This document shows, piece after piece, positions 5,922 through 24,654 of a stretch of 64,000 nucleotides of DNA (its first letter is position 1; each line of letters starts with the position of its first letter). Made by a program: the position numbers and the translations under genes. Under the pieces are notes generated by a model, which saw only the letters and a program-made list of their open reading frames with translations, had not been told where the DNA came from and ran no database searches. Origin of the DNA: Bacteroidota bacterium (GTDB lineage: Bacteria > Bacteroidota > Bacteroidia > Bacteroidales > JAAUTT01); assembly GCA_020048915.1 (NCBI GenBank), contig JAIFLU010000191.1, forward strand, positions 1 through 64,000. Direction: 5' to 3'.

Positions 5922-6024
5922 TTACTCAACCTTCAATTTCGGCAACCCTTTCACAATCTCTACCGTTTCGACACTTACACGGATAATGCTCAACGACAAA
6001 TCTAATATATAGCGTGGGTTGCCT
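5922..6024 (-). pseudogene. Orphan 3' tail of a type ISP restriction-modification gene
   Basis: This short stretch encodes 'GNPRYILDLSLSIIRVSVE' and the rest of a C-terminus up to an in-phase TAA. It matches the end of the intact type ISP gene whose stop is at 7093. Bases 5935-6024 and 7106-7195 align without gaps with about 10 differences in 90, and the encoded residues are nearly all kept. No homology is seen upstream of 6024. It is the remnant of a second, related restriction gene or of a partial duplication spanning the RhuM gene between the copies. Confidence 0.8.
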
Positions 6025-6068
6025 GTGTTGTGGAAGTATATTTTAGCATGGGTCGTTTGATTCGTATT

Positions 6069-7100: not shown

Positions 7101-10100
7101 ATCTTAATTTCGGCAACCCCTTCACAATCTCCACCGTTTCGACACTAACTCGGATAATACTCAATAGCAAATCTAAAATATAACGTGGGTTGCCTACTTC
7201 TATAGCCCAATCGTTGGGGTCGTTTTTGATTCCACTGTCTTTGTGGATAGTTACCTGGTAGCGTTCCATAATCCATTCGATGGCACTTTTGCCATTTACT
7301 ATGTATTCGTAGGCTTCGGCAGGTATGTTTTCTATGGTTATTTGGCTGTTGTAAATAATTCGGCTTTTATCGTCCTTGCTTGGGAAGCGCATTTTATCGA
7401 CTTTGTAAATACTGGCTGTGGTTTCGACAGGCTCAACCACCTTAACGACATCGGCAGGCTTCACAGTTTCGTAATTCAAATGCAAATCAGCAAGTTTGCG
7501 CCCTGCTTTGCTTAATGCCCAAAAGTCCTTTACGTCGTCGACCAACGGAATACGGGGCAACATTTTTTTAAGGTCGCTGGCAAAAGCGGTGCGGTATTCG
7601 GGACTGTGCAAAAAGCCATACACGTAATAAAATATATCTTCTTTCGATACGTTTTTGCCATATTGTTTTTTAGCTCTATCTAAAATAAAGTCACTAACGC
7701 CATCACGACGAATATAGTCAGAATCGCTTTCTCCTGAATCAAATAATGATTTTTGCTCCTTCTTGTGTTCTTCATAAACATAAAGAGGAAAACATTGCGC
7801 ACCAGCATCAAGAATATTTAGGTCAGGTATTATATTTGTAATAATAGTAGAGGATTCTTTATTACCACCTAACCCTGAAACGCAAATTACAATATTATCT
7901 AAATGAGGATTAGGGAAAAGTTTTGGGATTTGATAAACCATTTCATTTAGAGCACGAGAAAAATAAAGTATTTGTTTAAAAAAAGGACGGTATGAGCTTG
8001 TAACTAATTCTCCTGATTTAAAATCGTGATATTTTCCTTTTTCTGCATCCCACTCTAAAGCTCTTGTCCAACTTATTTTTAATGAATCATATGAAATAAA
8101 CTGTTTAATATTTAAATCAGAATTATTGAGTTTAGTCTTTAAATATAAAGTAGTTTGCTCATTATAAAAATCAAGCAGTTCGTTAATCTTTATTTCTAAT
8201 TTAGATTTAGATGAATTATAACACCAAGCATCTCTTTGCGTTTTTAAACCGTTTGAGTAAAAAGGCACGAAAAAAGTTTGTAAGTTTTGTTTGTTTTCTT
8301 TATCACCAAGCGGAATAAATGTTTGAAAGGAATCATTACGAAGACTAATCCAATCTCCATGATGATTTGGAACAATTGTTTGCCAAACCATTTTTGAACT
8401 TTCAATAGATGCAAATTCACTTATAATATGTAGTTTTTCTTCACGAGAAAGATAATCTCCTATATTGCAATAGTATATATTAGATTTTGAAGAATTTGTG
8501 TCAGGCTTTTTTACTAATAAAGTTATTGAAATTGCTGAACGAGAACCAGAACCAAAAACGTTCCCTGCTTCCTTTTTACGATATTCACCTTGACCGTGTG
8601 CATCGCCTCTCAAATCAAAAACATAAATAGATGAAAATTCCTTTTCAAGACACTTTCTAAAACCTTGCATTGAATTGTTTGTAATCCAACCACCATCAGA
8701 AATAAAGGAAATAATACCTCCATTAATATCTAATCGGTCTGTTGACCAGCGAAATGCTTTTATATAAGAGTTATAAAGTGAATTTTTATTGTTTGCATTC
8801 GTTTCAGCTGCATAAGTTGAAGTAATTCGAGAATCTAACTTTAAATACTTTTGATTTTGAGCATTATCATTTGCAGATTTCTGACCAAATGAATAAGGCG
8901 GATTACCCATAATTACTCTCAAAGGTGCTTTCTTCTGTGCAGCCACCCTATTGGAGTTTTGAGGGAACATTTCAGAAAATAACTTTTCACTTTCGTCGGT
9001 TTCGCCCAATTGAAAGGTGTCGGTAAGTACAATACCATCGAAAGGCGTGTATTTGGCTTTTCCAATACCATCGTCGGGGTCGGGAGTCTGGTCGTGGTAA
9101 GCGTTTTCGATGTTAATGGCTGCAATGTAATAGGCAAGCAATACAATTTCGTTGGCGTGTAGCTCGTGACGGTATTTGCGTTCGAGGTCTTGGAGTTCAA
9201 TAAGTCCACTTTGAAGTAAGCGGGTAACGAATGTGCCTGTGCCTGTAAAAGGGTCGAGCAAATGAATGTTTTCGTCGGAAATGCTTCTGCCAAATTCCTT
9301 TTGCAGAATGTAATTGACGGAATGAATGATAAAATCGACAACCTCGACAGGAGTGTAGACAATACCCAGTTTTTCGACCATTTTTGGGAAAGCCGTTTTG
9401 AAAAACTTGTCGTACAATTCAATAATTATACGTTGTTTGCCTTCGGCATTATCAATACCTGCTGCACGAGATTTTACCGATTCGTAGAACTTTTGGAGAA
9501 TCTCGGAATCTTTCTCGATTGCCCCTGCTTCCAACAAATCGAGCATAGATTGAATAGAAACCGAAATAGGATTGTTCTTTACAAACGAATATCCTTCGAA
9601 CAATGCCTCGAACACAGGCTTTGTAACAATATGCTGCGAAAGCATTTCAATGGCTTCGCTCTCGCTAATTGATGGGTTAATGTTTTTTTGCAAACCCGAA
9701 AGAAATTCGGCAAATGCTTTGCGGTGTGGTTCGTCGTCGTGTATGAGTCGTGTAATGCGCTCGATGTAACGTTCGGCAATTTTGGCAACGTCTTTCGCCC
9801 ATTCTTCCCAATAACGGCGGTCGCCCACTTTATTGACCATACGGGCAAACACCACATTTTGCAGTTGCTCAAATTGTATGGCAAGTTGTTCGCCAATGGT
9901 TTTAGTTTTACCATATTCGGCTTGGGGTTCGGCAACAAATGGTGTGCCGTCGGTATCGAAAGTATATTCGGGGCGACCTACCAAAATATTGTCGGGCTTT
10001 TTGCGATTGAGTTCTATTTTATTTACCGTGGCATTGAAGCGGTCGTCGTGCGCACGAAGTGCATTGAGGACAGTCCACACTACCTTGTAGCGTTCGTTGT

Positions 10101-12003
10101 CGTTTAGGGCAACATCGGCTTCAATGTCGGCAGGCACCACTACAGGGATAATAATATAACCGTATTTCTTGCCTGGCGATTTGCGCATTACACGGCCAAC
10201 AGATTGCACCACATCCACCTGCGAGTTACGTGCCGAAAGAAACAAAACAGCATCTAACGAAGGAACATCGACACCCTCGCTCAAACAACGTACATTGGTA
10301 AGAATACGACATTCGTTATTTTCAATATCTTCTTTAAGCCAGCCCAGCAATTCGTCGCGTTGGGGTGCGCTCATGGTGCCGTCAATATGATTTGATGCTG
10401 TGGTTACCATTTGTTCCTGTTTCTCGGCAGGGAGCGAACCTAAATAGGCTTCGGTAGAGGTGTTGAATGTAGTTGTGATTTTTTTCGATATGGCAATGCT
10501 TTGGCAAAATGCCACGGCACGTCTCATGGGTTCAGGGTCGGTGGCTTTGATAATACCTTCGTCGCCCAGTATTTGTTTTGATAGTGCGTTGATACAGCCA
10601 ATGAGCTTTGAAGCATCATCGGTATTTATTTCGCTGTCTTTACTCGTAATGATATTTTGAACAGCGGGCGGAATGTCTTTTTCATTTAAGGTTAGAATTA
10701 GAACCTTATAATCGGTAAGCAAGCCCTTTTCAACAGCTTCGCCAAAACCGATACGGTATATTTCTTCGCCATACATTGAAATGTCGTCCATGGAACAAAG
10801 TACGGCTTCTGCTTGTGCAGCTTTGCTTTTAACATTATCGTCGTACAAACGAGGTGTGGCGGTCATGTACAGGCGTTTCTTTGCTTTTAGAAAATCCTTC
10901 TCGTGGACTTTTGTAAAAGCCGATTCGTCTTCGTTCGACAAGGTAACACCAGTTGTACGGTGAGCTTCGTCGCAAATAATTAAATCGAATACTCCAAAAC
11001 CGTTATTGGCATTAATCAATTCTTTTTGTGCACGGGCAATTACTTCAATGGATTGATAAGTTGAGAAAACAACAGTCATTCCCTCTTTGCCATTTTTTTT
11101 AATATGGTTGAATTGATTGAGAATGTCCTTAGTATTAGTAGAAGCTGGCAATGCCAAATCGACCACACTGAAACTGTCGGAATCTTCGTTCCTGTTTTTT
11201 TTACGTGATATTTCTGGGTCTGAACAAATACATATTGCGTTAATGGGTTCTTTGGCATCGGCACTCCATTCACGAAGCGTTTGACCTAACAAAGAAATAG
11301 AAGGCACCAAAAATAAAATAAGTCCTTTGCCATTGGTTTCATTTTCGGCAATGCGAAGCGAATTAAAGGTTTTACCTGTTCCGCAAGCCATAATGAGCTT
11401 GCCACGGTCGGCCGTTTTAAAATGTTCGTGGGTTTTGTCCAACGCTTCTTTTTGATGTTGGCGAAGTTCTTTTTTTGGTGTGCGTGAAGTTTCGCCAGTT
11501 ATTCCGTTGTCGAGTTTTTCCCAATCAACAGGGGCTTGGTCTAAATCGTAAAGGTTAATTCGTGTAACAGGTGGATTCTGATTTTTAATTGCTTCGGTAG
11601 CATTTATACCCCATTTGTTGGTTGTTGAAATCCAAAGTCGGTGCGAGAAACTAACGGTTTGCATGTTCTCGTTAGGAAACTCCCTGCTCGATGTTGATAG
11701 GAAAGAATCAACAGCGGGTTTATCAATTGAAGAATCTTCCTGAAAGCATTTACATTGAATAGCCCAATAATCGCCATCGTGTGTAAGGGCAACTAAATCT
11801 ATTCCAGTATCGTGTCCGCCGAGGTCGCTTTTACCATGAAATTCATTCCAGAGCCAAACATGCTTAAACTTAAAACAATATGTGGGGTCGGTCTGTAAAT
11901 ATGCTTGCATCAATCGTTCAAAACGGTTTCCTTTATCACGTTCGGAAAAAGCTATTTTACGGTATTGGTCAAGTATTGAACGAAAAGAGGTTTTGTTTGA
12001 CAT
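7093..12003 (-). CDS. Type ISP restriction-modification enzyme (nuclease-helicase-methylase single polypeptide)
   Basis: One chain of about 1,636 residues carries all activities of an LlaGI/LlaBIII-type enzyme. Numbered from a TTG five codons upstream: an Mrr-like nuclease (D70, 'GIDLV' 72-76, 'QCK' 88-90), a superfamily 2 translocase (Walker A 'CGTGKT' about 212-217, 'DEAH' 350-353, 'TATPR', motif VI 'QSVGRVMR'), a helical coupler, and an N6-adenine methyltransferase (motif I 'DPFTGTG' near 923, motif IV 'NPPY' near 1038) followed by a long target-recognition region. Family members methylate one strand of an asymmetric site and cut after translocation-driven collision. I prefer the ATG at 12003 over the TTG at 12018. 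All core motifs are intact, so it is probably active. No separate specificity subunit is needed. Confidence 0.93.
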   Translation of the reverse strand: MSNKTSFRSILDQYRKIAFSERDKGNRFERLMQAYLQTDPTYCFKFKHVWLWNEFHGKSDLGGHDTGIDLVALTHDGDYWAIQCKCFQEDSSIDKPAVDSFLSTSSREFPNENMQTVSFSHRLWISTTNKWGINATEAIKNQNPPVTRINLYDLDQAPVDWEKLDNGITGETSRTPKKELRQHQKEALDKTHEHFKTADRGKLIMACGTGKTFNSLRIAENETNGKGLILFLVPSISLLGQTLREWSADAKEPINAICICSDPEISRKKNRNEDSDSFSVVDLALPASTNTKDILNQFNHIKKNGKEGMTVVFSTYQSIEVIARAQKELINANNGFGVFDLIICDEAHRTTGVTLSNEDESAFTKVHEKDFLKAKKRLYMTATPRLYDDNVKSKAAQAEAVLCSMDDISMYGEEIYRIGFGEAVEKGLLTDYKVLILTLNEKDIPPAVQNIITSKDSEINTDDASKLIGCINALSKQILGDEGIIKATDPEPMRRAVAFCQSIAISKKITTTFNTSTEAYLGSLPAEKQEQMVTTASNHIDGTMSAPQRDELLGWLKEDIENNECRILTNVRCLSEGVDVPSLDAVLFLSARNSQVDVVQSVGRVMRKSPGKKYGYIIIPVVVPADIEADVALNDNERYKVVWTVLNALRAHDDRFNATVNKIELNRKKPDNILVGRPEYTFDTDGTPFVAEPQAEYGKTKTIGEQLAIQFEQLQNVVFARMVNKVGDRRYWEEWAKDVAKIAERYIERITRLIHDDEPHRKAFAEFLSGLQKNINPSISESEAIEMLSQHIVTKPVFEALFEGYSFVKNNPISVSIQSMLDLLEAGAIEKDSEILQKFYESVKSRAAGIDNAEGKQRIIIELYDKFFKTAFPKMVEKLGIVYTPVEVVDFIIHSVNYILQKEFGRSISDENIHLLDPFTGTGTFVTRLLQSGLIELQDLERKYRHELHANEIVLLAYYIAAINIENAYHDQTPDPDDGIGKAKYTPFDGIVLTDTFQLGETDESEKLFSEMFPQNSNRVAAQKKAPLRVIMGNPPYSFGQKSANDNAQNQKYLKLDSRITSTYAAETNANNKNSLYNSYIKAFRWSTDRLDINGGIISFISDGGWITNNSMQGFRKCLEKEFSSIYVFDLRGDAHGQGEYRKKEAGNVFGSGSRSAISITLLVKKPDTNSSKSNIYYCNIGDYLSREEKLHIISEFASIESSKMVWQTIVPNHHGDWISLRNDSFQTFIPLGDKENKQNLQTFFVPFYSNGLKTQRDAWCYNSSKSKLEIKINELLDFYNEQTTLYLKTKLNNSDLNIKQFISYDSLKISWTRALEWDAEKGKYHDFKSGELVTSSYRPFFKQILYFSRALNEMVYQIPKLFPNPHLDNIVICVSGLGGNKESSTIITNIIPDLNILDAGAQCFPLYVYEEHKKEQKSLFDSGESDSDYIRRDGVSDFILDRAKKQYGKNVSKEDIFYYVYGFLHSPEYRTAFASDLKKMLPRIPLVDDVKDFWALSKAGRKLADLHLNYETVKPADVVKVVEPVETTASIYKVDKMRFPSKDDKSRIIYNSQITIENIPAEAYEYIVNGKSAIEWIMERYQVTIHKDSGIKNDPNDWAIEVGNPRYILDLLLSIIRVSVETVEIVKGLPKLRFE
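7106..7195. repeat. Direct repeat flanking the RhuM gene (second copy 5935-6024)
   Basis: The last 30 codons of the type ISP gene are repeated on the other side of the RhuM gene at 5935-6024 with about 89% identity over 90 bp in the same orientation. Both copies keep the coding frame to their stop codons. This is compatible with RhuM having entered by recombination between two related restriction genes. Confidence 0.8.
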
Positions 12004-12018
12004 ATAATCAAAATCCAA

Positions 12019-12366
12019 ATGTTTATTATTTTGCTAATGTAAGCAAATCGGTATTTAAAATGCAATGTCGCAAGGGTAAGAAAACTCATGCTTTTTATAA
12101 ATGTTTCGACAGGCACAGCATCGGGCAATCGGCATGTAATCACTGAGGCCAGTCTATCAAATTATCCATCCTTTCTTGTACATTCCAAAATGTAGTTTTT
12201 ATAGGTATGAATTTCGATGGAGCTTCTGTTTATGTGGCTACTAATTAGTCTTATACTGCTGTTGGCATTCCGTTTGACACTGTTTAGAAAAGGGTGAGGA
12301 AACGGATGTTAACCTTTCCTAATCATTCGTAGCTTGAAGAGGTATAACAATTAAAAATTGAGTAAT
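12019..12366 (+). promoter_or_regulatory. Intergenic region with candidate sigma-54 promoter (12263-12278) and upstream palindrome (12179-12194)
   Basis: This 348-bp gap separates the divergent restriction gene from the nif-linked cassette. TGGCATTCCGTTTGAC at 12263-12278 has the -24 GG and the -12 G at the correct sigma-54 spacing, but the -12 'GC' reads 'GA', so it is a weak match. A perfect 6-bp-arm palindrome, TACATTCCAAAATGTA, lies at 12179-12194, about 84 bp upstream, where an activator site would be expected. The remaining sequence shows no gene. Confidence 0.4.
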
Positions 12367-12753
12367 ATGAAAATCGCATTCCCATTGATGAGTGAAAACG
12401 AATTAGCAGACGATTTTGCCAATTCCAGGTATATAGGATTTTACGACGAATCCGATAAGCAAACTGAAATAATTCCTTTGAAAGTTTTGGAGAAAAAATT
12501 AGGTACCGGGCTTTTCCCCGAAAATTTAATTTCGAACAATCTGTCAGCAATTGTAAGCCAGCAATTTAATATACTTATGCTGCGAATTCTTAAGGATTAT
12601 GGCATTAAAGCCCTTCAGGCAAATGGCAGTAATTTACAAGCAAATATTCATGCATTCGATTCCGGTGAACTTCTCCCCTTTAATCTATATAAATCAATTT
12701 TCGGAGAACAATGCGGTACGGGCTGTTCTTCGTGTAATTCATCCTGTTCTTAA
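12367..12753 (+). CDS. NifX/NifB-type iron-molybdenum cluster-binding protein with Cys-rich tail
   Basis: The 128-residue product opens with 'MKIAFPLMSENELADDFANSRYIGF'-type sequence, the fold start of the dinitrogenase iron-molybdenum cofactor-binding domain seen in NifX, NafY and the C-terminal part of NifB, and continues with 'ILKDYGIKALQANGSNLQ'. It ends in an unusual tail with four cysteines (CGTGCSSCNSSC). Domain relatives carry NifB-co or FeMoco between scaffold proteins. I infer a cofactor or Fe-S cluster carrier or sensor for the nitrogenase encoded 1 kb downstream. The start is the ATG at 12367; a TTG three codons upstream is also open. It is first of three tightly spaced genes (gaps of 10 and 4 bp). 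Confidence 0.72.
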   Translation: MKIAFPLMSENELADDFANSRYIGFYDESDKQTEIIPLKVLEKKLGTGLFPENLISNNLSAIVSQQFNILMLRILKDYGIKALQANGSNLQANIHAFDSGELLPFNLYKSIFGEQCGTGCSSCNSSCS

Positions 12754-12763
12754 TTATACTATT

Positions 12764-13018
12764 ATGTCTATAAATAGTGCAATCAGTTTAATTGGTGCAG
12801 TCGATTCTGCTCACGAACTACGAGAGAAGCTTAATCACTGTAACGGGCAGGGCGAATTTAACGATTGCCTGATTTCGAATGGCTTTAGTTTTACAAAAGA
12901 TGAATTTGAAGACGCTGTTAGGCTGCTTCATCTGCGATGCCAGGAACAGGAAGATGCCGAACTGATTCTCGAAAAAGCCATGTGGCTCCGTTTTTTAATT
13001 CAAACAAATGAATACTAG
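12764..13018 (+). CDS. Nif11 family protein
   Basis: The 84-residue protein begins 'MSINSAISLIGAVDSAHELREK', contains 'GFSFTKDEFEDAVR' and is mostly helical. This is the pattern of the Nif11 domain, first noted near nif genes in diazotrophs and later as leader peptides of some ribosomal peptides. Molecular function is unknown. No double-Gly cleavage motif or Cys/Ser/Thr-rich core follows the domain, so a RiPP precursor role is unlikely. It starts 10 bp after the NifX-like gene and ends 4 bp before the next gene, so the three are probably cotranscribed. Confidence 0.65.
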   Translation: MSINSAISLIGAVDSAHELREKLNHCNGQGEFNDCLISNGFSFTKDEFEDAVRLLHLRCQEQEDAELILEKAMWLRFLIQTNEY

Positions 13019-13022
13019 TAAT

Positions 13023-13343
13023 ATGACAAAAATACAATTTCGCCCGTTAGGAGAAGTCCTTGAAATCATTCAACAAATAGGGTTCGATATTTCCTATGCT
13101 TACGACGATTTGCTATTCTCGGAGCACAATGTATTTATCATTCGGTTCGATCAGTCGAGCAATAAAAAATTGTGGCTCTATTTTAATGAAGATTGCGACC
13201 TTGTTAGGAGAGAATCCATTGGAAATCAACTAAAAAATGCATACCTCTCAAAAAAGATTGAGATACACCATGGAGGTTTATTTTCAGTTCAACAAATCGA
13301 AGGAAAAGAAGAACTTGAGCTAAAGTTTTTTGAAGCAGTATAA
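13023..13343 (+). CDS. Uncharacterised nif-linked protein
   Basis: A 106-residue soluble protein beginning 'MTKIQFRPLGEVLEIIQQIGF'. I do not recognise a family. It looks like a compact alpha/beta protein (a helix after residue 8, then 'NVFIIRFD' and 'KLWLYFNED' strands) with one Cys, no signal peptide and no membrane segment. The ATG at 13023 lies 4 bp after the Nif11 stop; an ATG at 13008 inside the Nif11 gene is also in frame. It is last in the cassette and is followed by a hairpin terminator, so its role is probably tied to its two upstream partners. Confidence 0.6.
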   Translation: MTKIQFRPLGEVLEIIQQIGFDISYAYDDLLFSEHNVFIIRFDQSSNKKLWLYFNEDCDLVRRESIGNQLKNAYLSKKIEIHHGGLFSVQQIEGKEELELKFFEAV

Positions 13344-13574: not shown

Positions 13575-14486
<912 letters not shown>

Positions 14487-14490
14487 GAAT

Positions 14491-14518
14491 CTAGCAGGAA
14501 GCCTTGAAATGATGCTAG
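14491..14518 (+). other. Small hairpin after nifH
   Basis: CTAGCA (14491-14496) and TGCTAG (14513-14518) can pair five bases after the nifH stop. There is no U-tract, so it is more likely an mRNA-stability or attenuating element that keeps nifH transcript in excess than a full terminator. Confidence 0.35.
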
Positions 14519-14566
14519 TTATAAAAGAATAAGTAAGAAAAATATTAACAAATAAAACCATCAGTC

Positions 14567-14893
14567 ATGTTATTAATAAGAGCAATTGTACGCCCAGAAA
14601 AATCTTCGGTAGTAATGAAGGCGCTTTTTGAGGCCGGTTTTCCTGCCGTAACAAAAATGGCAGTATTTGGCCGTGGTAAACAGCGTGGATTAAAAGTTGG
14701 AAATATCACTTATGACGAATTGCCAAAAGAGCTTTTGCTCATCGCAATTAAAGATTCAGATAAAGATTTTGTGATTACCACCATTATTGATGCCGCCCGT
14801 ACCAGTGAGAAAGGTGCTTTTGGAGATGGTAAAATCTTCATCACCCCAATTACGGAGACCTATACTATTTCTAACGGTATAAAAGAGGTTTAG
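14567..14893 (+). CDS. nifI1: Nitrogen regulatory P-II-like protein NifI1
   Basis: A 108-residue GlnB-family protein ('LIRAIVRPEKSSVVMKALFEAGFPAVTKMAVFGRGKQRG', 'GAFGDGKIFITPI'). The T-loop region lacks the Tyr uridylylation context of classical GlnB and matches the NifI1 type. In methanogens NifI1 and NifI2 form a complex that binds NifDK and blocks the NifH docking site until 2-oxoglutarate and ATP rise. Its place directly after nifH supports the same switch-off role here. Confidence 0.92.
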   Translation: MLLIRAIVRPEKSSVVMKALFEAGFPAVTKMAVFGRGKQRGLKVGNITYDELPKELLLIAIKDSDKDFVITTIIDAARTSEKGAFGDGKIFITPITETYTISNGIKEV

Positions 14894-15068
14894 TACGCTT
14901 AACTCAAATAGAAATGGGTATTTCAAAAGACAAGCATCTGTCATGGCAAATTTATTTATAAATAAAAAATGAACTCATGAAACATCCATTTTTAGTTACC
15001 AAACACACAAGGGAATGACTATAAGGATGTTCCATCTGACCTTAATCTAACAATAAAAAATAAAACAG

Positions 15069-15449
15069 ATGAAATTAATACTTGCAATAATTCGCATTGC
15101 CAAGATGAACGAAACCAAGCAGGCACTTTCAGATGCAGGTCTTCCTTCGTTCACAGCTATGGGAGTGTTAGGAAGGGGACGCGGACGGGGAGAAGGTCAA
15201 AATTTCCAGGAAGTAATTAGTAATCCCCTAAACCAGGAAGCCCTGAAGCAAATTGGCCCCGAGCCCCGGTTAAAATCAAAACGGCTTATCACCCTGGTGG
15301 TTCCCGAAAGCAAAAAAGATCAGGCTATTGAAACAATCATTAAGGTAAATCAGACCCATAATAGCGGAGATGGAAAGATATTCGTAGTGGAAGCTTTGGA
15401 TTCCATCCGGGTTCGCACCGGCGAAAGAGGCGAAATCACACTAGATTAA
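15069..15449 (+). CDS. nifI2: Nitrogen regulatory P-II-like protein NifI2
   Basis: A 126-residue P-II paralogue with the longer NifI2 T-loop ('GVLGRGRGRGEGQNFQEVISNP', about residues 36-57) and the conserved 'GDGKIFVVEALDSIRVRTGERG' end. NifI2 senses 2-oxoglutarate and forms the regulatory heteromer with NifI1 that inhibits NifDK. It ends 15 bp before nifD. The 175-bp gap after nifI1 is unusually wide for this pair and holds no gene. Confidence 0.92.
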   Translation: MKLILAIIRIAKMNETKQALSDAGLPSFTAMGVLGRGRGRGEGQNFQEVISNPLNQEALKQIGPEPRLKSKRLITLVVPESKKDQAIETIIKVNQTHNSGDGKIFVVEALDSIRVRTGERGEITLD

Positions 15450-15464
15450 AAGCAGGAGGTAAAA

Positions 15465-17075
15465 ATGGCTAAAATTGAGATGGATCCACAACGTTGGAAA
15501 CAGGAGGTATTGAAAAAGTACCCGTCGAAGGTTGCTAAAAAGCGCGAAAAATCAATAATGGTGCACGAAGGTGCAGATAATATTAAGCCTATTCAGGCAA
15601 ATGTACGCACCATTCCGGGCATTATCACTCAAAGGGGATGTACCTATGCGGGCTGTAAGGGTGTTGTACTTGGGCCTACACGCGATATTGTCAACCTGGT
15701 CCATGGACCAATCGGATGTAGTTTTTATGCATGGCTTACCCGTCGTAACCAGACATTACCGCCTACTCCCGATTCCCCAAACTATATGATGTACTCTTTT
15801 TCGACCGATATGCAAGATTCTAACATTGTGTTTGGTGGAGAAATTAAACTGAAACAAGCTTGCCGCGAAGCGTTTGAATTGTTCAAACCAAAAGCCATAG
15901 GTATCTTTTCAACCTGCCCGGTTGGTTTAATTGGCGACGACGTACATGCAGTAGCCCGCGAAATGAAGGAAGAACTGGGAATAAATATTTTTGGTTTCAG
16001 CTGCGAAGGGTATAAAGGCGTTAGCCAAAGTGCCGGTCACCATATTGCCAATAATGCACTTGTTAAACACGTAATTGGATTGACCGACAAAGCCGTGGAA
16101 GGGAAATATAAAATTAACATGTTGGGAGAATATAACATTGGAGGCGATGCATTTGAATTAGAACGCATTCTCGACAAATGCGGTATCTCTTTGAACTCCT
16201 CTTTCAGCGGAAACTCAACCATGGAGCAATTCGAACGTGCACATATGGCCGATCTGAATGTGGTTATGTGTCACCGGTCAATTAACTATGTGGCCGAAAT
16301 GATGGAGAAAAAATACGGAATACCCTGGTTTAAGGTAAATTTTATTGGAGCAGAAGCTTCCGCAAAATCATTGCGTAAAATTGCCGATTACTTTGGGGAT
16401 CAGGACTTGAAAAATCGTGTAGAGGAAGTTATTGCCGAAGAACTCGCTATTGTAAAAAAATCGATCGACGAAATAAAACCTCGTACCGATGGTAAAATGG
16501 CCATGTTATTCGTGGGAGGCTCCCGTGCTCATCATTATCAGGAGTTGTTTAACGAGTTGGGAATGTCGACTCTATCGGCAGGCTATGAGTTTGGGCACCG
16601 CGACGACTACGAAGGCCGCCGGGTAATCCCTACCATCACCATTGATGCTGATAGCCGCAACATAGAAGAACTCACCGTGGAAGCCGATCCAATGAAATTC
16701 AAGCCCCGCAAAACCGAAGAGGAGCTGAAAGCTTTAGAAGCGCTCGATTTTAATGGGTACGATGGAATGTTGGCCGAAATGGCAAAAGGAACGTTGATCA
16801 TCGACGATTTAAGCCATTACGAAATGGAAAAGCTGATTGAGATCTACCATCCGGATGTGTTTTGTGCCGGGATTAAAGAAAAATATTGTGTGCAGAAAAT
16901 GGGTATTCCGCTGAAACAGCTACACAGCTACGATTATGGCGGACCCTATGCCGGATTTGAAGGAGCCGTTAATTTTTATAAGGATATTGATATGATAGTA
17001 AATACCAGTATCTGGAAGATGATTAAAGCCCCTTGGGAAGCTGAGCCTGTAATTGAAGCTGAATATGCAGCGTAA
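15465..17075 (+). CDS. nifD: Nitrogenase molybdenum-iron protein alpha chain
   Basis: The 536-residue NifD carries P-cluster cysteines C59, C85 and C151, His192 within 'SQSAGHHIAN' (equivalent to His195 of Azotobacter), the FeMoco ligand C269 ('VVMCHRSINY') and the second FeMoco ligand His486 ('LKQLHSYDYGGPY'). The Val of 'AGCKGVVLGP' matches alpha-Val70. It is longer than Azotobacter NifD because of an insertion between about residues 380 and 450, typical of the clostridial/NifI-containing lineages. The start ATG sits behind a strong AGGAGG. Residue context is that of a Mo enzyme rather than AnfD or VnfD. Confidence 0.97.
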   Translation: MAKIEMDPQRWKQEVLKKYPSKVAKKREKSIMVHEGADNIKPIQANVRTIPGIITQRGCTYAGCKGVVLGPTRDIVNLVHGPIGCSFYAWLTRRNQTLPPTPDSPNYMMYSFSTDMQDSNIVFGGEIKLKQACREAFELFKPKAIGIFSTCPVGLIGDDVHAVAREMKEELGINIFGFSCEGYKGVSQSAGHHIANNALVKHVIGLTDKAVEGKYKINMLGEYNIGGDAFELERILDKCGISLNSSFSGNSTMEQFERAHMADLNVVMCHRSINYVAEMMEKKYGIPWFKVNFIGAEASAKSLRKIADYFGDQDLKNRVEEVIAEELAIVKKSIDEIKPRTDGKMAMLFVGGSRAHHYQELFNELGMSTLSAGYEFGHRDDYEGRRVIPTITIDADSRNIEELTVEADPMKFKPRKTEEELKALEALDFNGYDGMLAEMAKGTLIIDDLSHYEMEKLIEIYHPDVFCAGIKEKYCVQKMGIPLKQLHSYDYGGPYAGFEGAVNFYKDIDMIVNTSIWKMIKAPWEAEPVIEAEYAA

Positions 17076-17076
17076 A

Positions 17077-17145
17077 TAGTCGTAAGTAGTAAGTCAGTAG
17101 TCGATAGACAAATATATAATACTTACGACTAAATACTTACGACTA
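17077..17145. repeat. AGTCGTAAGT-type inverted repeat between nifD and nifK
   Basis: TAGTCGTAAGTA (17077-17088) is complementary to two copies of TACTTACGACTA (17120-17131 and 17134-17145), so alternative hairpins can form in the nifD-nifK spacer. The same core recurs at 18566, 18580, 23029, 27727 and 27748. Confidence 0.75.
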
Positions 17146-17179
17146 ATGACTCAATTCTAACCCTTTAAAATTAAATAAT

Positions 17180-18562
17180 ATGTTACTTCGACATACAACC
17201 GATAAAATCATCGACCGGGAAGCGTTGACAATAAACCCGGCAAAAACCTGTCAGCCGATAGGTGCCATGTACGCGGCCTTGGGTATTCATGGCTGCCTTC
17301 CTCATAGTCATGGTTCGCAGGGATGTTGTTCATACCACCGTACTGCCCTAACCCGGCATTATAAGGAACCGGTGATGGCATCCACCAGTTCGTTTACCGA
17401 AGGATCTTCGGTATTTGGTGGACAAGCAAACCTTTTACAAGCTGTTGAAACCATTTTTGCAGTTTACAATCCCGATATCATTGCCGTACACACCACTTGT
17501 TTGTCCGAAACTATCGGCGACGATGTGAACCAAATCGCACAAAAGGCTCGTGACGATGGCAAGGTTCCGGCTGGCAAATACCTGATTCATTGCAACACCC
17601 CGAGTTATGTGGGCTCGCATGTTACCGGATATGCCAACATGGTAACTTCCATGGTTAAACATTTTTCGGCCCGGAGCGCTACCCGCAAAAACCAGGTAAA
17701 TCTGATTACCGGTTGGGTAGAACCAAGCGATATGCGCGAAATTAAACGTCTTGCAACCGAAATGGGGGTTAAAATTGTAATGTTCCCCGATACTTCCGAT
17801 GTCCTGGATACGCCAATGACCGGCAAACATGAATTTTATCCAAAGGGTGGTGTTACCATTCCCGAACTTATCAGCACGGGCGACAGCAAATCTACCATCG
17901 GGTTAGGGCCTTTTTGTACCGAAGATGCAGCAGTATTGCTCGATAATAAGTGTAAGGTAAAATTCGATATGCTCGAATTGCCCATTGGATTGAAAGCAAC
18001 AGATAATTTTATCACTTCGTTAAGTCGGGCAGCCGGGGTTCAGGTGCCGGAATCGATTACTGCCGAGCGTGGTCGACTGATTGATATGGTTACCGACATG
18101 CATAAATACCTGTATGGGAAACGGGTGGCACTTTATGGAGATCCCGATACCCTTGTTCCTCTAACTGAGTTTTTGGTAACACTCGATATGAAACCTGTTT
18201 ACATCGTGAGCGGTACGCCGGGAAAAAAGTTTGAAGCCTCCCTGACAAAAGTTTTAAGTAAGAAAGTACCCGAAGCCAAATTCAAAAATGGGGAACGTGC
18301 CGATATGTATTTGCTCCACCAATGGATCAAAAACGAGCCTGTCGATTTAATCATTGGGAATAGCTATGGGAAGTACATTTCACGCGATGAAGATATTCCC
18401 TTGGTTCGGGTAGGATTCCCAATTACAGATAGGGTTGGGCACAGCTACTTTCCAATAGTTGGCTATAACGGTGCCATGAACCTGGTAACCAAAATGCTGA
18501 ATATGATCCTGGATAAAGAAGACCGCGTTTGTCCTGAGGAAAAGGTTGAGTTAACGATGTAA
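17180..18562 (+). CDS. nifK: Nitrogenase molybdenum-iron protein beta chain
   Basis: The 460-residue NifK pairs with NifD to hold the P-cluster. Cluster cysteines are visible at C24 ('KTCQPIGAMYA'), C49/C50 ('SQGCCSYHRT') and C107 ('HTTCLSETIGDD'), together with 'TPSYVGSHVTGYANM' and 'VRVGFPITDRVGHSYFP'. It lacks the roughly 50-residue N-terminal extension of Azotobacter NifK, as in clostridial and archaeal-type proteins. It lies 104 bp after nifD, separated by the inverted repeat. Confidence 0.97.
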   Translation: MLLRHTTDKIIDREALTINPAKTCQPIGAMYAALGIHGCLPHSHGSQGCCSYHRTALTRHYKEPVMASTSSFTEGSSVFGGQANLLQAVETIFAVYNPDIIAVHTTCLSETIGDDVNQIAQKARDDGKVPAGKYLIHCNTPSYVGSHVTGYANMVTSMVKHFSARSATRKNQVNLITGWVEPSDMREIKRLATEMGVKIVMFPDTSDVLDTPMTGKHEFYPKGGVTIPELISTGDSKSTIGLGPFCTEDAAVLLDNKCKVKFDMLELPIGLKATDNFITSLSRAAGVQVPESITAERGRLIDMVTDMHKYLYGKRVALYGDPDTLVPLTEFLVTLDMKPVYIVSGTPGKKFEASLTKVLSKKVPEAKFKNGERADMYLLHQWIKNEPVDLIIGNSYGKYISRDEDIPLVRVGFPITDRVGHSYFPIVGYNGAMNLVTKMLNMILDKEDRVCPEEKVELTM

Positions 18563-18565
18563 GAA

Positions 18566-18589
18566 AGTCGTAAGTAGTTAGTCGTAAGT
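18566..18589. repeat. AGTCGTAAGT repeat pair between nifK and nifE
   Basis: Two direct copies of AGTCGTAAGT (18566-18575 and 18580-18589) start four bases after the nifK stop. Confidence 0.7.
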
Positions 18590-18690
18590 TGCAAGACAGA
18601 AGGTTTTGTTCCAGAATACTAACGGGGTAGCAACATGCAATTCAATCTGAAACAGCGATTAAAGCAGGATTATAACTAAAAATTTGAAAC

Positions 18691-20022
18691 ATGGATTCAA
18701 TACTCATCGAACGCAAAAATCAGGTTTTCCGCACCGGGACTGATGCCCAAACCATTCACTGCAACAAGCCCAGCGTGGCTGGTTCTGTGAGTCAGCGAGC
18801 CTGCGTTTTTTGCGGTTCACGAGTGGTATTGTATCCTATTGCCGATGCGCTGCATATAGTGCATGGCCCCATAGGTTGTGCCGCCTATACCTGGGACATT
18901 AGGGGGGCGTTGTCGTCTGGACCTGAAATTCACCGGTTAAGCTTCTCAACCGACTTACGCGAAAAAGATGTGGTATTTGGAGGCGAAACAAAATTATACC
19001 ATTCTCTTATTGAACTGATAGACCAATACAAACCTAAAGCAGCTTTCGTTTATTCCACCTGCATTGTAGGCGTTATTGGAGACGATATTGAAGCTGTTTG
19101 TAAGAAAGCGAATAAGGAAAAAGGAATTCCGGTTATTCCGGTTCAGGCTCCCGGGTTTAACGGTTCAAAAAAAGATGGCTACAAAATTGCCTGCGAAGCA
19201 TTGGCCACGCTTATTGGAACGGGAGATTTAGCAGTTCCCGAAAAAAGTATCAATATTTTGGGCGATTTTAACCTGGCAGGCGAATTGTGGATGCTTTTAG
19301 AATACTACAAAAAAATGGGTATTCACGTAAATGCCACCATTACCGGCGACGGCAGGGTCGAGGCAATTGCCAGCGCACATAAAGCTTCCTTAAATGTGGT
19401 GCAATGCTCTGGTTCCATGATGCACCTGGCTAAAATAATGAAGGATAAGTATAACATTCCCATGATGAAGGTTTCGTACTTCGGCATTGAAGATATGAGC
19501 GATGCGCTTTACGAAGTGGCTAAATTCTTTAAAGACGATGAGATGATGGCGAAAGCCCGCATATTGGTTCGCGAGGAATTTGGCAGGTTAATGCCAGTCT
19601 TGAAGGAGTATAAGGAAAAACTTCAGGGGAAAAAAGCCGCCATTTATGTAGGGGGATCTTTTAAAGCGATATCACTGATAAAAGCATTACGATTAATTGG
19701 CGTTCAAACAGTAGTAGTAGGATCTCAAACAGGAACACCCGACGAATACGAAATTATCAATCAATTGTGCGACGAAGGTACCATTGTGGTAGACGATTCT
19801 AATCCGATCGAGCTATCCGCTTTTGTTAAAGAAACCTGTGCCGATATCTTTATTGGCGGAGTGAAAGAACGCCCAATTGCTTATAAGTTGGGACTGGGAT
19901 TTTGCGACCATAACCACGAACGCAAGGAGGCCCTCGCCGGATACGAAGGCATGCTCAATTTTGCCAAAGAAATTTATGCCACCGCCATGAGTCCGGTTTG
20001 GCAGTTTACACGACAGCGATAG
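18691..20022 (+). CDS. nifE: Nitrogenase iron-molybdenum cofactor scaffold NifE
   Basis: The 443-residue NifD paralogue has the NifE-type N-terminus 'CNKPSVAGSVSQRACVFCG', the cluster cysteines C38, C63 ('HGPIGCAAYTWDIRGALS') and the Cys of 'VYSTCIVGVIGDD', plus 'NVVQCSGSMMHLA' at the cofactor site. It ends 'KERPIAYKLGLGFCDHNHE'. NifEN receives NifB-co and is where Mo and homocitrate are inserted before transfer to apo-NifDK. It is followed by nifN after 79 bp. Confidence 0.96.
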   Translation: MDSILIERKNQVFRTGTDAQTIHCNKPSVAGSVSQRACVFCGSRVVLYPIADALHIVHGPIGCAAYTWDIRGALSSGPEIHRLSFSTDLREKDVVFGGETKLYHSLIELIDQYKPKAAFVYSTCIVGVIGDDIEAVCKKANKEKGIPVIPVQAPGFNGSKKDGYKIACEALATLIGTGDLAVPEKSINILGDFNLAGELWMLLEYYKKMGIHVNATITGDGRVEAIASAHKASLNVVQCSGSMMHLAKIMKDKYNIPMMKVSYFGIEDMSDALYEVAKFFKDDEMMAKARILVREEFGRLMPVLKEYKEKLQGKKAAIYVGGSFKAISLIKALRLIGVQTVVVGSQTGTPDEYEIINQLCDEGTIVVDDSNPIELSAFVKETCADIFIGGVKERPIAYKLGLGFCDHNHERKEALAGYEGMLNFAKEIYATAMSPVWQFTRQR

Positions 20023-20101
20023 GGAATCATAGTCTAGTGTGTGCTAAGTGTAGTTAGAAACTGCGCTTTAGTAATAGAAAATTCGGGTATAACTTTTTTA
20101 A

Positions 20102-21523
20102 ATGCTAAAAACTACAATCACGATGGAAGCAGTTAAATCCCCCAAAAAAACATTCGTTTCTACACGAAACGCTTGTAAACTCTGTGCTCCACTGGGTGCG
20201 AGCGTGGTGTTTAAAGGTATCAAAGGGTGTCTTCCGATGATTCATGGGTCGCAGGGATGCGCTACTTACATCCGTCGTTATATGATCAGTCATTTCAAAG
20301 AGCCGGTGGATATTGCATCTTCAAACTTTAGCGAAGAAACAACCATCTTTGGAGGAAATCGAAATTTTAATACCGGTATCGAAAATATCATACAGCAATA
20401 CAATCCTGAAGTGATTGGCATTGCTTCCGCTTGCCTAAGCGAAACCATTGGCGAAGACATCCCGAGGTTAATTCGCGAGTATCGGACGGTCAATGCTTCC
20501 AAAGCGCTTCCGGTATTCGTGAACGCCTCTACTCCAAGCTATCAGGGTACACATATGGATGGTTTCCATGAGGCAGTATCCAGTGTGGTAGCAAATTTGG
20601 CTGAGTGCGGCGAAACCGGAACCCATATCAACATTTTCCCGGGGTTTGTTTCCCCAGCCGATCTCCGACATCTTAAAGATATTTTAACAGATTTTGGTCT
20701 CGATTACGTTCTTTTTCCCGATTATTCCGATTCGCTCGACAATCCTCACTGGAAAGAATACCAAATTATTCCCGAAGGGGGAACTGCAGTTTCGGAGATT
20801 AAACGTACCGGAACAGCAAAAGCTTCATTGGAGTTTGGCTATATTCTCAACTTGGGAGGCATAAACAGTCGCATTACCGAAAGCAAAGCAGCTTTTACAG
20901 CAGCGCAATGGCTCGAAAAAAACCGTTCTGTAATTCGTTGTAAGTTAGGAATGCCAATTGGAATCAACGAGACCGACCGTTTTTTCAAACAACTGGAAGA
21001 GTTAAGCGGCAAACCAACCCCAAATCGGTATGAACGTCAGCGGGGACGGCTGGTAGATGCCTATGTAGATGGCCATAAATATGTGTTCGGAAAGCGCGCA
21101 ATTGTTTATGGCGACGAAGATATGGTAGTTGGGTTGGTCGCTTTTTTAACAGAAATAGGAATTGAGCCGGTATTAGTTGCTTCCGGTGGCGAAAGCGGCA
21201 TACTCAAAAGAGAAATTGAACGCATTACCGAAGGTAAATACCCTCAAATGAAAGTTGTTAGCGGTATGGACTTTGAATCGATAAATGAAATGACGGAGGA
21301 ATTGAAACCCGATATTTTTATTGGTAACAGTAAAGGGTATTACATTTCCCGACGACTAGGAATTCCACTCGTAAGAGTTGGATTTCCGGTACACGATCGA
21401 TTTGGGGCACAGCGCCTCCAACATCTTGGCTACGAAGGCACACAGCAGCTTTTCGACCGTATCACCAATGCCCTCATAGAATATAAACAGGAGCATTCGC
21501 CGGTGGGATATAAATATATTTAG
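20102..21523 (+). CDS. nifN: Nitrogenase iron-molybdenum cofactor scaffold NifN
   Basis: The 473-residue NifK paralogue has 'TRNACKLCAPLGASVVFKGIKGCLPMIHGSQGCATYIRR', 'SACLSETIGEDIPRLI' and 'VRVGFPVHDRFGAQR', the usual NifN landmarks. It forms the heterotetrameric scaffold with NifE. The start at 20102 gives 'MLKTTITMEAV'; an ATG at 20123 ('MEAVKSPKK') is an alternative. It is a stand-alone NifN, not the NifN-B fusion found in some anaerobes, since nifB is a separate gene downstream. Confidence 0.95.
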   Translation: MLKTTITMEAVKSPKKTFVSTRNACKLCAPLGASVVFKGIKGCLPMIHGSQGCATYIRRYMISHFKEPVDIASSNFSEETTIFGGNRNFNTGIENIIQQYNPEVIGIASACLSETIGEDIPRLIREYRTVNASKALPVFVNASTPSYQGTHMDGFHEAVSSVVANLAECGETGTHINIFPGFVSPADLRHLKDILTDFGLDYVLFPDYSDSLDNPHWKEYQIIPEGGTAVSEIKRTGTAKASLEFGYILNLGGINSRITESKAAFTAAQWLEKNRSVIRCKLGMPIGINETDRFFKQLEELSGKPTPNRYERQRGRLVDAYVDGHKYVFGKRAIVYGDEDMVVGLVAFLTEIGIEPVLVASGGESGILKREIERITEGKYPQMKVVSGMDFESINEMTEELKPDIFIGNSKGYYISRRLGIPLVRVGFPVHDRFGAQRLQHLGYEGTQQLFDRITNALIEYKQEHSPVGYKYI

Positions 21524-21601
21524 TAGTAAGATGGAAGTCAGGAGACCGAAGTCGGAAGTTTAAAAACTCCTACACGTAATCCGAACCTCGCTCCCGATAG
21601 T

Positions 21602-21700
21602 CCCGATAGCTATCGCGGATCGGCACTGCAACCTGTATTTTGTCCTCTGTAACCTGCAACTTTTATTAAACAACCCGCTCCCGATAGCTATCGCGGATCG
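21602..21700. repeat. Two CCGATAGCTATCG palindromic repeats between nifN and nifB
   Basis: CCCGATAGCTATCGCGGATCG occurs from 21602 and again from about 21679, each preceded by CGCTC. The core CGATAGCTATCG is a perfect palindrome. A third copy lies in the permease region at about 43766. These look like members of a dispersed Bacteroidota intergenic palindrome family. Confidence 0.7.
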
Positions 21701-21735
21701 AATCTCGCAACCCGTAACCCGTAACACAAAACCCT

Positions 21736-23004
21736 ATGAATACACCCGAAAATTACAAAAACCATCCCTGCTTTAATGCAGAGGCGCGTCACACCAACGC
21801 ACGAGTGCATTTGCCTGTTGCCCCTAAGTGTAACATTCAGTGTAATTATTGTAATCGTAAGTACGATTGTGTAAACGAAAGTCGTCCGGGTGTTACATCT
21901 TCGGTGTTAAGCCCGTATCAGGCAGTGGAATATTTAAAGGCATTGGACAAGCGAATTGATAATCTTTCGGTAGTGGGCATTGCCGGTCCAGGCGATCCTT
22001 TTGCCAATCCCGAGGAAACCCTCGAAACCATGCGGCTGGTTAAGGCGGAATTTCCCGACAAGATATTTTGTCTTTCAACCAACGGACTGAATTTGAAACC
22101 TTATATAGCAGAAATTGCCGAATTGGGAGTTTCGCATGTCACGCTTACCATAAATGCGATTGACCCTGATATTACTGCAAAAGTGTATGCCTGGGTAAGG
22201 CACGATAAAAAAATATACCGGGGCAGGGAAGGAGCTGCCTTTATTATCGAACGCCAATTAGAATGTATTCCATTGTTGAAAGAGCATGGAATTACTGTAA
22301 AGATAAATTCTATAATAATTCCGGGGATTAATGACCATCATCTGGAGGAGGTTGCCAAAAAAACAAAAGAACTGGGAGCGGATATTATCAATTGTATTCC
22401 CGTTATTCCTACCAAAGAAACTCCTTTTGAAAGCCTGGATGAGCCTTCCAAAACCATGATTTTTAGGGTGAGGACTTTAGTTAAAGACCATCTTCCGGTA
22501 ATGACACATTGTGCACGTTGCAGAGCCGATGCTGCCGGTCTGCTGGGACAAGATTTTACCGAAGCTTTCGGCATGTTGCAGGAATTTGCCACCCTTCCAT
22601 TGCGTCCAACGGATAACCGCCCTCATGTTGCCGTAGCTACTTACGAAGGATTATTGGTAAATATGCATCTGGGTGAGGCTAAATCACTTTATATATACAA
22701 GCAAACCCCCAACGGGTATCATTTTATCGAAGAAAGACAAACACCCGCTTCCGGTTCGGGAGATTTCAGGTGGATTAACCTCGCAAAGACCTTGGGCGAT
22801 TGCCGCGCTTTGTTAGTTGGTGGAGTGGGGCCAAATCCGCTTAATATACTTCAACATTCGGGTATACGAGTAGTTCAGATGACCGGTATGATTGACGATG
22901 GACTGGAAGCTGTTTTCAATAACCAGCCCATTAAATCGGTTAAAAAAGCCGATGCTTTTAAGTGCGGAGATTCATGCAGGGGGAATGCGCAAGGATGTGC
23001 TTAA
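21736..23004 (+). CDS. nifB: FeMo cofactor biosynthesis radical SAM protein NifB
   Basis: The 422-residue protein has the radical-SAM motif C32-x3-C36-x2-C39 ('CNIQCNYCN'), the NifB-specific 'RKYDCVNESRPGV', 'GPGDPFANPEETLET', and 'HCARCRADAAGLLG'. From about residue 300 it carries a C-terminal NifX-like cofactor-binding domain ('VAVATYEGLLVNMHLGEAKS', 'LLVGGVGPNPLNILQHSGIRV'). NifB builds the carbide-centred 8Fe core (NifB-co). The two-domain form is complete. It follows nifN after a 212-bp repeat-rich spacer. Confidence 0.96.
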   Translation: MNTPENYKNHPCFNAEARHTNARVHLPVAPKCNIQCNYCNRKYDCVNESRPGVTSSVLSPYQAVEYLKALDKRIDNLSVVGIAGPGDPFANPEETLETMRLVKAEFPDKIFCLSTNGLNLKPYIAEIAELGVSHVTLTINAIDPDITAKVYAWVRHDKKIYRGREGAAFIIERQLECIPLLKEHGITVKINSIIIPGINDHHLEEVAKKTKELGADIINCIPVIPTKETPFESLDEPSKTMIFRVRTLVKDHLPVMTHCARCRADAAGLLGQDFTEAFGMLQEFATLPLRPTDNRPHVAVATYEGLLVNMHLGEAKSLYIYKQTPNGYHFIEERQTPASGSGDFRWINLAKTLGDCRALLVGGVGPNPLNILQHSGIRVVQMTGMIDDGLEAVFNNQPIKSVKKADAFKCGDSCRGNAQGCA

Positions 23005-23027
23005 AATAGGAGTAAGTAATTAGTAGT

Positions 23028-23038
23028 AAGTCGTAAGT
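23028..23038. repeat. AGTCGTAAGT repeat between nifB and ferredoxin gene
   Basis: AAGTCGTAAGT follows a run of AGTAAGTAATTAGTAGT-like sequence 24 bp after the nifB stop, matching the repeats around nifK and modB. Confidence 0.65.
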
Positions 23039-23094
23039 ATTTATCTTATACTAACGCTGAAGGGAAAAAGAAACAAACCAATAAATAAATTTTT

Positions 23095-23400
23095 ATGAAA
23101 AAGCCAGACCACATGATCCTAATTTGCAATTCCTACCGGGTTGCAGGAGATGCACAGGGAGCCTGTAATAAAAAAGGGGCGTCTGCCATGTTGCAATATA
23201 TTTCCGAAGGATGTTCCGACCGCGGAATAGATGCCGTTGTAACCACCACCGCCTGTTTGAATGTCTGCGCCCAGGGTCCGGTTATGGTTGTCCAACCTAA
23301 TAATTTTTGGTACGGAGGCGTAACCGAAGATAGAATTGACGAAATACTCGATGCCCTCGAAAATGGCGAGGCAGTGAGCGAGTATATAATAAGTGATTAA
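23095..23400 (+). CDS. Thioredoxin-like [2Fe-2S] ferredoxin
   Basis: The 101-residue protein has the cysteine pattern of the thioredoxin-fold [2Fe-2S] ferredoxins: C11, C24 ('GDAQGACNKKG'), C54 and C58 ('TACLNVCAQGPVMVV'), with one extra Cys at 40. The clostridial relative encoded near nif genes is known to interact with the MoFe protein. I infer an electron-transfer or maturation role in nitrogen fixation. It sits between nifB and nifV in the same direction. Confidence 0.9.
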   Translation: MKKPDHMILICNSYRVAGDAQGACNKKGASAMLQYISEGCSDRGIDAVVTTTACLNVCAQGPVMVVQPNNFWYGGVTEDRIDEILDALENGEAVSEYIISD

Positions 23401-23505
23401 AATGAACATGAAATTGGGTCGCCCCCAAAGGTCCCGAAAGTTATCAGGGATCGGTATGTAATGTGTGAATTTTTAATCATCCACCTATAAATTAAGGAGG
23501 CCCCA

Positions 23506-24654
23506 ATGGACAAAATAAAATTAATCGATACCACACTTCGCGATGGGGAACAAGCTCCGGGAGTGGTATTTCTGTTGAAGGAAAAACTGGCCATATGTGA
23601 ACTTCTGGATAAAGCTGGTATTCCCGAAGTTGAGGTAGGGACCCCTGCTATTGGTAAACGCGAGGTTCGGGATATTCAGGCAATCACCCAAGCAGGGTAT
23701 AAATTCAAAACATTGAGCTGGTGTCGCGGCATAAAATCGGATATTGAAGCTGCTCAAAAATCAGGTACCAATGGCGTCCATATTTCATTTCCGGTTTCGG
23801 AGATTCATTTGGCTGCACTGGATAAAACCAAATCCTGGGCATTAGATTCGATGCGGGAACTCGTAGCTTTTGCCAGTGATAAATTCGAATATGTCACCAT
23901 TGGGGCACAAGATGCATCGCGATGTGAGATTGATTTTTTAGATGAATTTATTGAATTGGCTGAATCTTTGGGGGTTCATCGGGTTCGGATTGCCGATACT
24001 GTTGGCATACTCAATCCTTTTTCCACCTTTCAGCTTTTCAGGAAACTGCGAAGCCATCATGCCAATATTGGACTCGAATTTCATGGGCACAACGATTTGG
24101 GAATGGCTACAGCCAACACTATTACAGCCATTAAAGCCGGAGCCGATTTTGCCAGCATTACCGTAAATGGAATTGGTGAAAGAGCTGGAAATGCTGCCCT
24201 CGAAGAAGTTATAATGGCCTTGAAAATCTCGGAAAAAGCAGAATTAAATATCCAAACACAGTACCTGAGTCAACTCTCGCAATTGGTTAGCAGGGCCTCA
24301 GGGAAACCCATTAACGATTTTAAACCGGTTACAGGTGATATGGTGCTAAAGCACGAATCGGGAATTCATACTAAAAGCATGCTTAAAAATCGTGAAACAT
24401 ATCAAATTATAAACGCTTCTGATATCGGTCGCGAAGAGCACGAATTTGTTTTTGGAAAGCACAGCGGCAAAGCCTCCGTAAAAGCTTTTTTTCTTAAGAA
24501 TAAAATTGTAATTTCAGACCAGCAATGTCAATTAATTCTCAATATTATCAAAGAACGCTCCCACATTCTTAAGAGAAGCATTTCGATAGGAGAAATATTA
24601 ATTATTCATGATGAGCTGGAGAAACGATTGACAATGTCACCTAATTCATTATAA
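23506..24654 (+). CDS. nifV: Homocitrate synthase
   Basis: NifV condenses acetyl-CoA with 2-oxoglutarate to homocitrate, the organic ligand of FeMoco. The 382-residue protein has the DRE-TIM signature 'LIDTTLRDGEQAPGVVF', the metal-binding 'EFHGHNDLGMATANT', the Gly-rich 'NGIGERAGNAALEEV' and 'HESGIHTKSM' in the LeuA-like C-terminal subdomain. Compact length without a LeuA-type regulatory domain favours NifV. A strong AAGGAGG at 23494-23500 precedes the ATG. It ends 18 bp before the Mop gene, linking cofactor and molybdenum genes. Confidence 0.93.
   Translation: MDKIKLIDTTLRDGEQAPGVVFLLKEKLAICELLDKAGIPEVEVGTPAIGKREVRDIQAITQAGYKFKTLSWCRGIKSDIEAAQKSGTNGVHISFPVSEIHLAALDKTKSWALDSMRELVAFASDKFEYVTIGAQDASRCEIDFLDEFIELAESLGVHRVRIADTVGILNPFSTFQLFRKLRSHHANIGLEFHGHNDLGMATANTITAIKAGADFASITVNGIGERAGNAALEEVIMALKISEKAELNIQTQYLSQLSQLVSRASGKPINDFKPVTGDMVLKHESGIHTKSMLKNRETYQIINASDIGREEHEFVFGKHSGKASVKAFFLKNKIVISDQQCQLILNIIKERSHILKRSISIGEILIIHDELEKRLTMSPNSL

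Follow-up and report, generated by a model that had tools for sequence, protein, structure and literature searches.

Among the described systems closest to the proteins considered here is the NifX/NafY/VnfX family of cofactor chaperones (PF02579, IPR003731). NifX binds NifB-co through its residue His35 (PMC13128457), and NafY binds FeMo-co through His121, which is located in an HFG motif (PMC8496260). The NifY and NafX proteins of Azotobacter display the NifX fold without the cofactor histidine, and have been regarded as possible placeholders or antagonists (PMC13128457). An IPR003731 domain is also found in IssA, a thioferrate storage protein from Pyrococcus, where it is followed by an unstructured C-terminal tail that is long, cationic, rich in glycine and aromatic residues, and harbors the only Cys of the protein (PMC5524996). 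Two further groups enter the comparison: the Nif11/N11P leader peptides (PF07862, TIGR03798), and the small nif accessory proteins NifT, NifW, NifZ, NifO, and CowN. The locus described here, from a Bacteroidales genome, combines a NifX-like protein, a Nif11 protein, and a protein of no catalogued family. The accessible part of the Bacteroidetes nif survey (PMC4356463) mentions neither nifX nor "hypothetical" and describes no such cassette; searches of the open-access literature on Nif11 gave no description of it either, which is weak evidence of absence.

Layout and promoters of the cassette

The window analysed is the whole stretch of 64,000 nucleotides. As the preliminary description had it, three tightly packed ORFs occupy positions 12367-13343 of its forward strand: P1 (12367..12753, 128 aa), N11 (12764..13018, 84 aa), and P3 (13023..13343, 106 aa), the last being a partner without a family. 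The gaps are 10 bases between P1 and N11 and 4 bases between N11 and P3. Because orthologues of all three are found in many genera, and dN/dS ratios between close pairs are 0.01-0.17, the ORFs are, by this comparative evidence, real genes under purifying selection. The cassette does lie directly upstream of nifH, which starts at 13659 and opens a Mo-nitrogenase cluster on the same strand (13659..24654), nifH-glnB-glnB-nifD-nifK-nifE-nifN-nifB-2Fe2S ferredoxin-nifV, identified by Pfam and NCBIfam scans, with nifN named chiefly from its place in the cluster. Downstream of nifV come a ModE-like regulator and mod transport genes. This nif order is that of the Bacteroidales layout given in the accessible part of the published survey (PMC4356463). 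On the other side of the cassette, positions 4322-4924 contain the C-terminal third of a nifA gene. It agrees at 186 of 189 residues with the end of a complete nifA located elsewhere in the same genome (G000:C121), which suggests a recent partial duplication or an assembly artefact. Between this fragment and the cassette, a Type ISP restriction-modification enzyme (1641 aa) and a RhuM-family gene are encoded at 5202-12018.

The cassette had been credited with its own candidate promoter and a terminator. A sigma54-type (-24/-12) candidate, TGGCATTCCGTTTGAC, is found by motif match at 12263..12278 on the forward strand, but it is imperfect at -12 (GA for GC), and sigma70-like matches are no more frequent than in shuffled sequences. 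The nifH gene has a better sigma54-type candidate, TGGCATCAAACGTGCA, at 13606..13621 on the same strand, at -53 and with a consensus score of 13.8/15.9. A terminator-like hairpin is present 3' of P3 (13362..13399, forward strand; -17.2 kcal/mol, z -5.17), but its U-tract is weak and a simple terminator scan did not report it. Across the cassette units compared, 28 of 69 have the pattern TGGYAYN5T[TA]G no more than 200 bp ahead of their first gene, compared with 1 of 394 control ORFs, 1 of 69 reverse strands of the same regions, and an average of 0.3 in shuffled sequences; the ratio carries more weight than a p-value, since the loci are related and the sites of the window, nifH, and the cassettes were known when the motif was refined. 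A sigma54-type site also precedes 19 of the 33 cassette loci that are not nif-linked, and none was seen upstream of P3 in nine Chlorobi-type loci. The NifA upstream activator sequence TGT-N10-ACA is found before some cassettes, including that of the window (start 12102), at a frequency not clearly above chance.

The three protein families

P1 from the window matches PF02579 at an E-value of 0.008, below the gathering score, and 35 of its 36 orthologues match this family. Searched against the PDB, the P1 profile retrieves 1rdu (E 7e-12) and 1eo1 (MTH1175; E 2e-9). In Foldseek, the AlphaFold model (pLDDT 82.9, falling below 50 in the tail) matches structures of the NifX/MTH1175 type (1rdu at E 8e-7; TM1290 and MTH1175) and, more weakly, NifX (E 0.0085 for the protein in complex with NifEN) and NafY. 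P1 thus resembles the NifX/NafY/VnfX chaperones in fold and in its association with nif, but it lacks their HFG histidine and carries a four-cysteine tail instead. None of the 36 orthologues has His in the HFG column, which is occupied by Gly in 22, by Ser in 10, and by Asp, Arg, or Ala in the rest, whereas the NifB-fused and stand-alone NifX proteins of related genomes do have it. Of the name "cofactor-binding domain with a four-cysteine tail", under which P1 was first described, the first half is unsafe because the residue that ligates the cofactor in NifX/NafY is missing throughout. Two additional small NifX-like genes, one with the HFG histidine and one without, follow nifB in a genome that also encodes P1 (G046, L026:13325-14148).

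The P1 tail comprises about 15 Ser/Cys-rich residues and is probably disordered according to the model. Its cysteines (C116, C120, C123, and C127; C-x3-C-x2-C-x3-C; 12712..12747, forward strand) are all present in 36 of 36 full-length orthologues, the last at a spacing that varies by 2-5, and the pattern C-x3/4-C-x2-C-x2/4-C is observed in 35 of 37 sequences, the other two having a longer last gap. NifB from the same organisms ends with KCGxxCxGxxxxGC, in which the Cys offsets 0, 4, and 11 are those of the first, second, and fourth cysteines of P1; in the window this NifB tail is CGDSCRGNAQGCA (22963..23001, forward strand), and it is alike in nearly all NifB proteins examined. As compared at the sequence level, the likeness between the two tails consists in these three Cys spacings. 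Metal binding by the P1 tail is plausible, and there is a hint that P1 may handle an Fe-S cluster or a cofactor precursor through it. A C-x3-C-x6-C tail is conserved at the end of NifB-NifX fusions, both at 22963-23001 of the window and in NifB of about 20 genomes, and we know of no role assigned to it.

Two of the described systems share other traits with P1. By their description, NifY and NafX of Azotobacter have the NifX fold without the cofactor histidine, as P1 does, the conserved four-Cys tail being a feature of P1; by analogy with what has been suggested for them, P1 may act as an antagonist or placeholder. IssA resembles P1 in joining an IPR003731 domain to an unstructured C-terminal tail. 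Assignment of P1 to IssA was rejected, as the P1 tail is short, has four cysteines, and is not the long cationic tail rich in glycine and aromatic residues.

The identification of N11 as a Nif11 protein is borne out by its PF07862 score of 30.2 bits, against a gathering cut-off of 23.8. It shares this Pfam-level match with the N11P leader peptides but differs from them in other respects: TIGR03798 is matched at 25.9 bits, below the cut-off of 32.3, the Gly-Gly leader site is found in 0 of 44 orthologues, and the C-terminal half is conserved, with an invariant C[QK] in 44 of 44. N11 represents a subfamily associated with nif, and each nif-positive genome with N11 has one strong copy.

P3 carries the motif Y-A-[YF]-[DE]-D-L-[VLI]-F and matches no family of Pfam or NCBIfam; isolated, chance-level Pfam matches occur among 54 members. 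No PDB entry was matched by sequence and, with a confident AlphaFold model (pLDDT 88.6), Foldseek returned nothing at E<=0.001. The top candidates, C-terminal domains of cation diffusion facilitators, reached an E-value of about 0.1 and a TM-score of about 0.4 or less, and were dismissed as not meaningful. No P3 was found on the plasmids checked. Like NifT, NifW, NifZ, NifO, and CowN, P3 is small and restricted to diazotrophs, and it directly follows an ArsC-like, nifO-type gene in about three of nine Chlorobi-type loci (L127, L131, and L133, with TIGR01616 above its cut-off in L133). Unlike these proteins it belongs to no catalogued family, and the likeness is one of context only.

Distribution and gene neighborhoods

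A survey of co-occurrence across diazotrophs, as the preliminary description had advised, reveals that all three families are nearly confined to nif-positive genomes. Among 324 genomes of the order, 20 are nifD-positive (threshold E<=1e-100) and 304 nifD-negative. With weak hits left out (E >1e-4 for P3, >1e-5 for N11), P3 is present in 15 genomes (14/20 nifD-positive, 1/304 nifD-negative), N11 in 17 (16/20 and 1/304), and P1 in 16 (15/20 and 1/304), corresponding to Fisher p-values of 5e-19 to 2e-22, uncorrected for relatedness. The sole nifD-negative exception is the same for the three families, a MAG 86% complete in 660 contigs (G283), whose family includes other nif-positive genomes. Conversely, six nifD-positive genomes lack P3, and the 1.2-Mb, nif-positive genome G094 lacks all three; the module is therefore not essential for having nif genes.

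A GTDB-wide scan used a pattern derived from a 7-sequence P3 alignment, as all 15 P3 sequences together gave no stretch conserved enough. It detected 53 P3 loci, mostly in Bacteroidota, with one "Deltaproteobacteria" record and a Chitinispirillaceae MAG. Of these loci, 51 are in nifD-positive genomes (48 of the 50 tested, plus L083, L103, and L120, which correspond to the nifD-positive genomes G046, G033, and G041), and in L099, one of the two exceptions, the contig with P3 also has nifV. Chlorobi-type forms, which were found by profile, escape this pattern because it ends in [PSA]. In a sample of 283 genomes of the phylum, 60 are P3-positive, 64 nifD-positive, and 59 both. Most of the P3-positive ones belong to a single family, probably Chlorobiaceae, and because nearly all its sampled members are nif-positive, these data represent conservation of P3 rather than an independent correlation. 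In nine Chlorobi-type genomes, the P1 profile retrieved only relatives that match weakly (E 6e-10 at best; the one whose full sequence was read has HFG and no four-Cys tail) and the N11 profile only weak, generic Nif11 matches. P3 is thus present there without adjacent P1 or N11 and without the cassette forms of both.

Gene order was examined in 61 non-redundant P3 loci, where P3 has P1 as a neighbor in 37, N11 in 44, and both in 34, and the usual order is P1-N11-P3. Paludibacter-type loci differ in that P3 comes after nifV and is convergent with N11-P1, beyond which lie a GNAT gene and nifA. Neighbors of P3 include nifV-type (18 loci), nifD/E-type (16), nifA (13), ferredoxin (13), nifB (11), and modC (10) genes. 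Loss of linkage to nif in most genomes, or presence in non-diazotrophs, had been named as grounds for abandoning a nif role. The first applies in part: 27 of 61 loci have a nif or mod gene no more than about 9 kb away, a lower bound as some of the other 34 are on short contigs. The second does not, as virtually no non-diazotroph carries the genes. Because nifD-positive genomes of the order also display P1 alone, P1 with N11, or N11 with P3, the three proteins are, judging from gene occurrence, modular and do not form an obligate three-protein complex.

Other genes recur at these loci. Proteins of about 130-150 aa, HEPN-like by eye, are encoded between nifV and P3 or beside P3 in 17 + 5 loci (e.g. 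L117:7013-7474 and L081:8347-8784); the two tested had no Pfam or NCBIfam match. A GNAT acetyltransferase gene is located between nifA and P1 in L112 (9011-9535) and 9 other loci, and in L094 (1622-2083) and 8 other loci P3 is immediately preceded by a gene resembling nucleoside-diphosphate kinase.

Possible roles in nitrogen fixation

The cassette was originally proposed to be an undescribed accessory module of nitrogenase assembly, protection, or regulation. Its restriction to nif-positive genomes, its nif, nifA, and mod neighbors, and its sigma54-type promoters agree with this proposal, except that the three genes are no obligate trio. That the P1-N11-P3 set serves nitrogenase is very likely. 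The narrower reading that we prefer, a nif-regulon accessory module aiding the production or upkeep of Mo-nitrogenase in diazotrophs of Bacteroidota type, is one that we hold, from the sequences, with moderate confidence. As to the role itself, cofactor or Fe-S handling seems reasonably likely, and protection or regulation a more tentative option; the module would probably combine cofactor or Fe-S handling, by P1, with a nitrogenase-specific small factor, P3. In such a scheme, sigma54 with NifA would activate the module and nif jointly. P1, its cofactor histidine lost, would hold Fe-S or a FeMo-co precursor via its NifB-like Cys tail, and would meanwhile handle NifB/NifEN intermediates. P3, which is the most widely kept part and stands alone in Chlorobi-type genomes, could at a guess be a small chaperone or protection factor acting directly on a core nitrogenase or assembly protein, usually partnered by the helical N11. 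A bolder and more doubtful version is that P3 constitutes a new family needed for an assembly or protection step which is particular to Bacteroidota/Chlorobi-type nitrogenases and for which known nif genes do not account, and that P1 would be a NifX of a new type, carrying clusters on a NifB-like Cys tail and not on a histidine.

The three proteins could instead sense the Fe, redox, or O2 state, the Cys tail of P1 being the sensor, and modulate the activity or stability of nitrogenase without building its cofactor. The small size of the proteins, the invariant cysteines in P1 and N11, the non-essentiality illustrated by G094, and the position of cassettes beside nifA and GNAT genes in Paludibacter-type loci would suit such a role, which we nevertheless regard as possible rather than likely: there is no known regulatory domain, NifI-type PII proteins are already encoded between nifH and nifD, and the NifX fold together with linkage to nifV, nifB, and mod points to assembly.

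It is improbable that P1 is the NifX/NafY of these organisms, carrying NifB-co or FeMo-co on a histidine, despite the shared fold and the nif association, given that this histidine is missing from all P1 orthologues and retained by NifX of the same group, whether fused to NifB or stand-alone. Moreover, G046 encodes a stand-alone NifX alongside P1, and in two genomes without P1, G041 and G126, no such NifX was observed close to nif. Replacement of stand-alone NifX by P1 was also considered and set aside, there being no consistent anti-correlation. That the genes are passengers hitch-hiking with horizontally moved nif clusters would account for the 27 loci adjacent to nif, but is very improbable in view of the 34 loci that are away from nif and yet in nif-positive genomes, of the purifying selection, and of the cassettes' own sigma54-type promoters. 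Finally, the PF07862 match of N11, and the fact that TIGR03798 is a leader-peptide model, could suggest a RiPP precursor and a small natural-product system. This is hardly tenable with a sub-threshold TIGR03798 score, no Gly-Gly site, and conservation where a variable core would be expected, and no RiPP enzyme or transporter was recognized among the recurrent cassette neighbors.

Minimal nif sets have been defined mainly from Proteobacteria, Paenibacillus, and methanogens. P3 is kept in nearly all the Chlorobi-type diazotrophs sampled and in most of those from Bacteroidales, and is absent from the family libraries searched, which suggests that current lists lack some helpers of group III nitrogenases. 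P3 could be used to mark diazotrophy in genomes of this phylum and is a concrete target for knockout, and P1 raises the question of whether clusters can be handled by the Cys tail of a NifX-fold protein.
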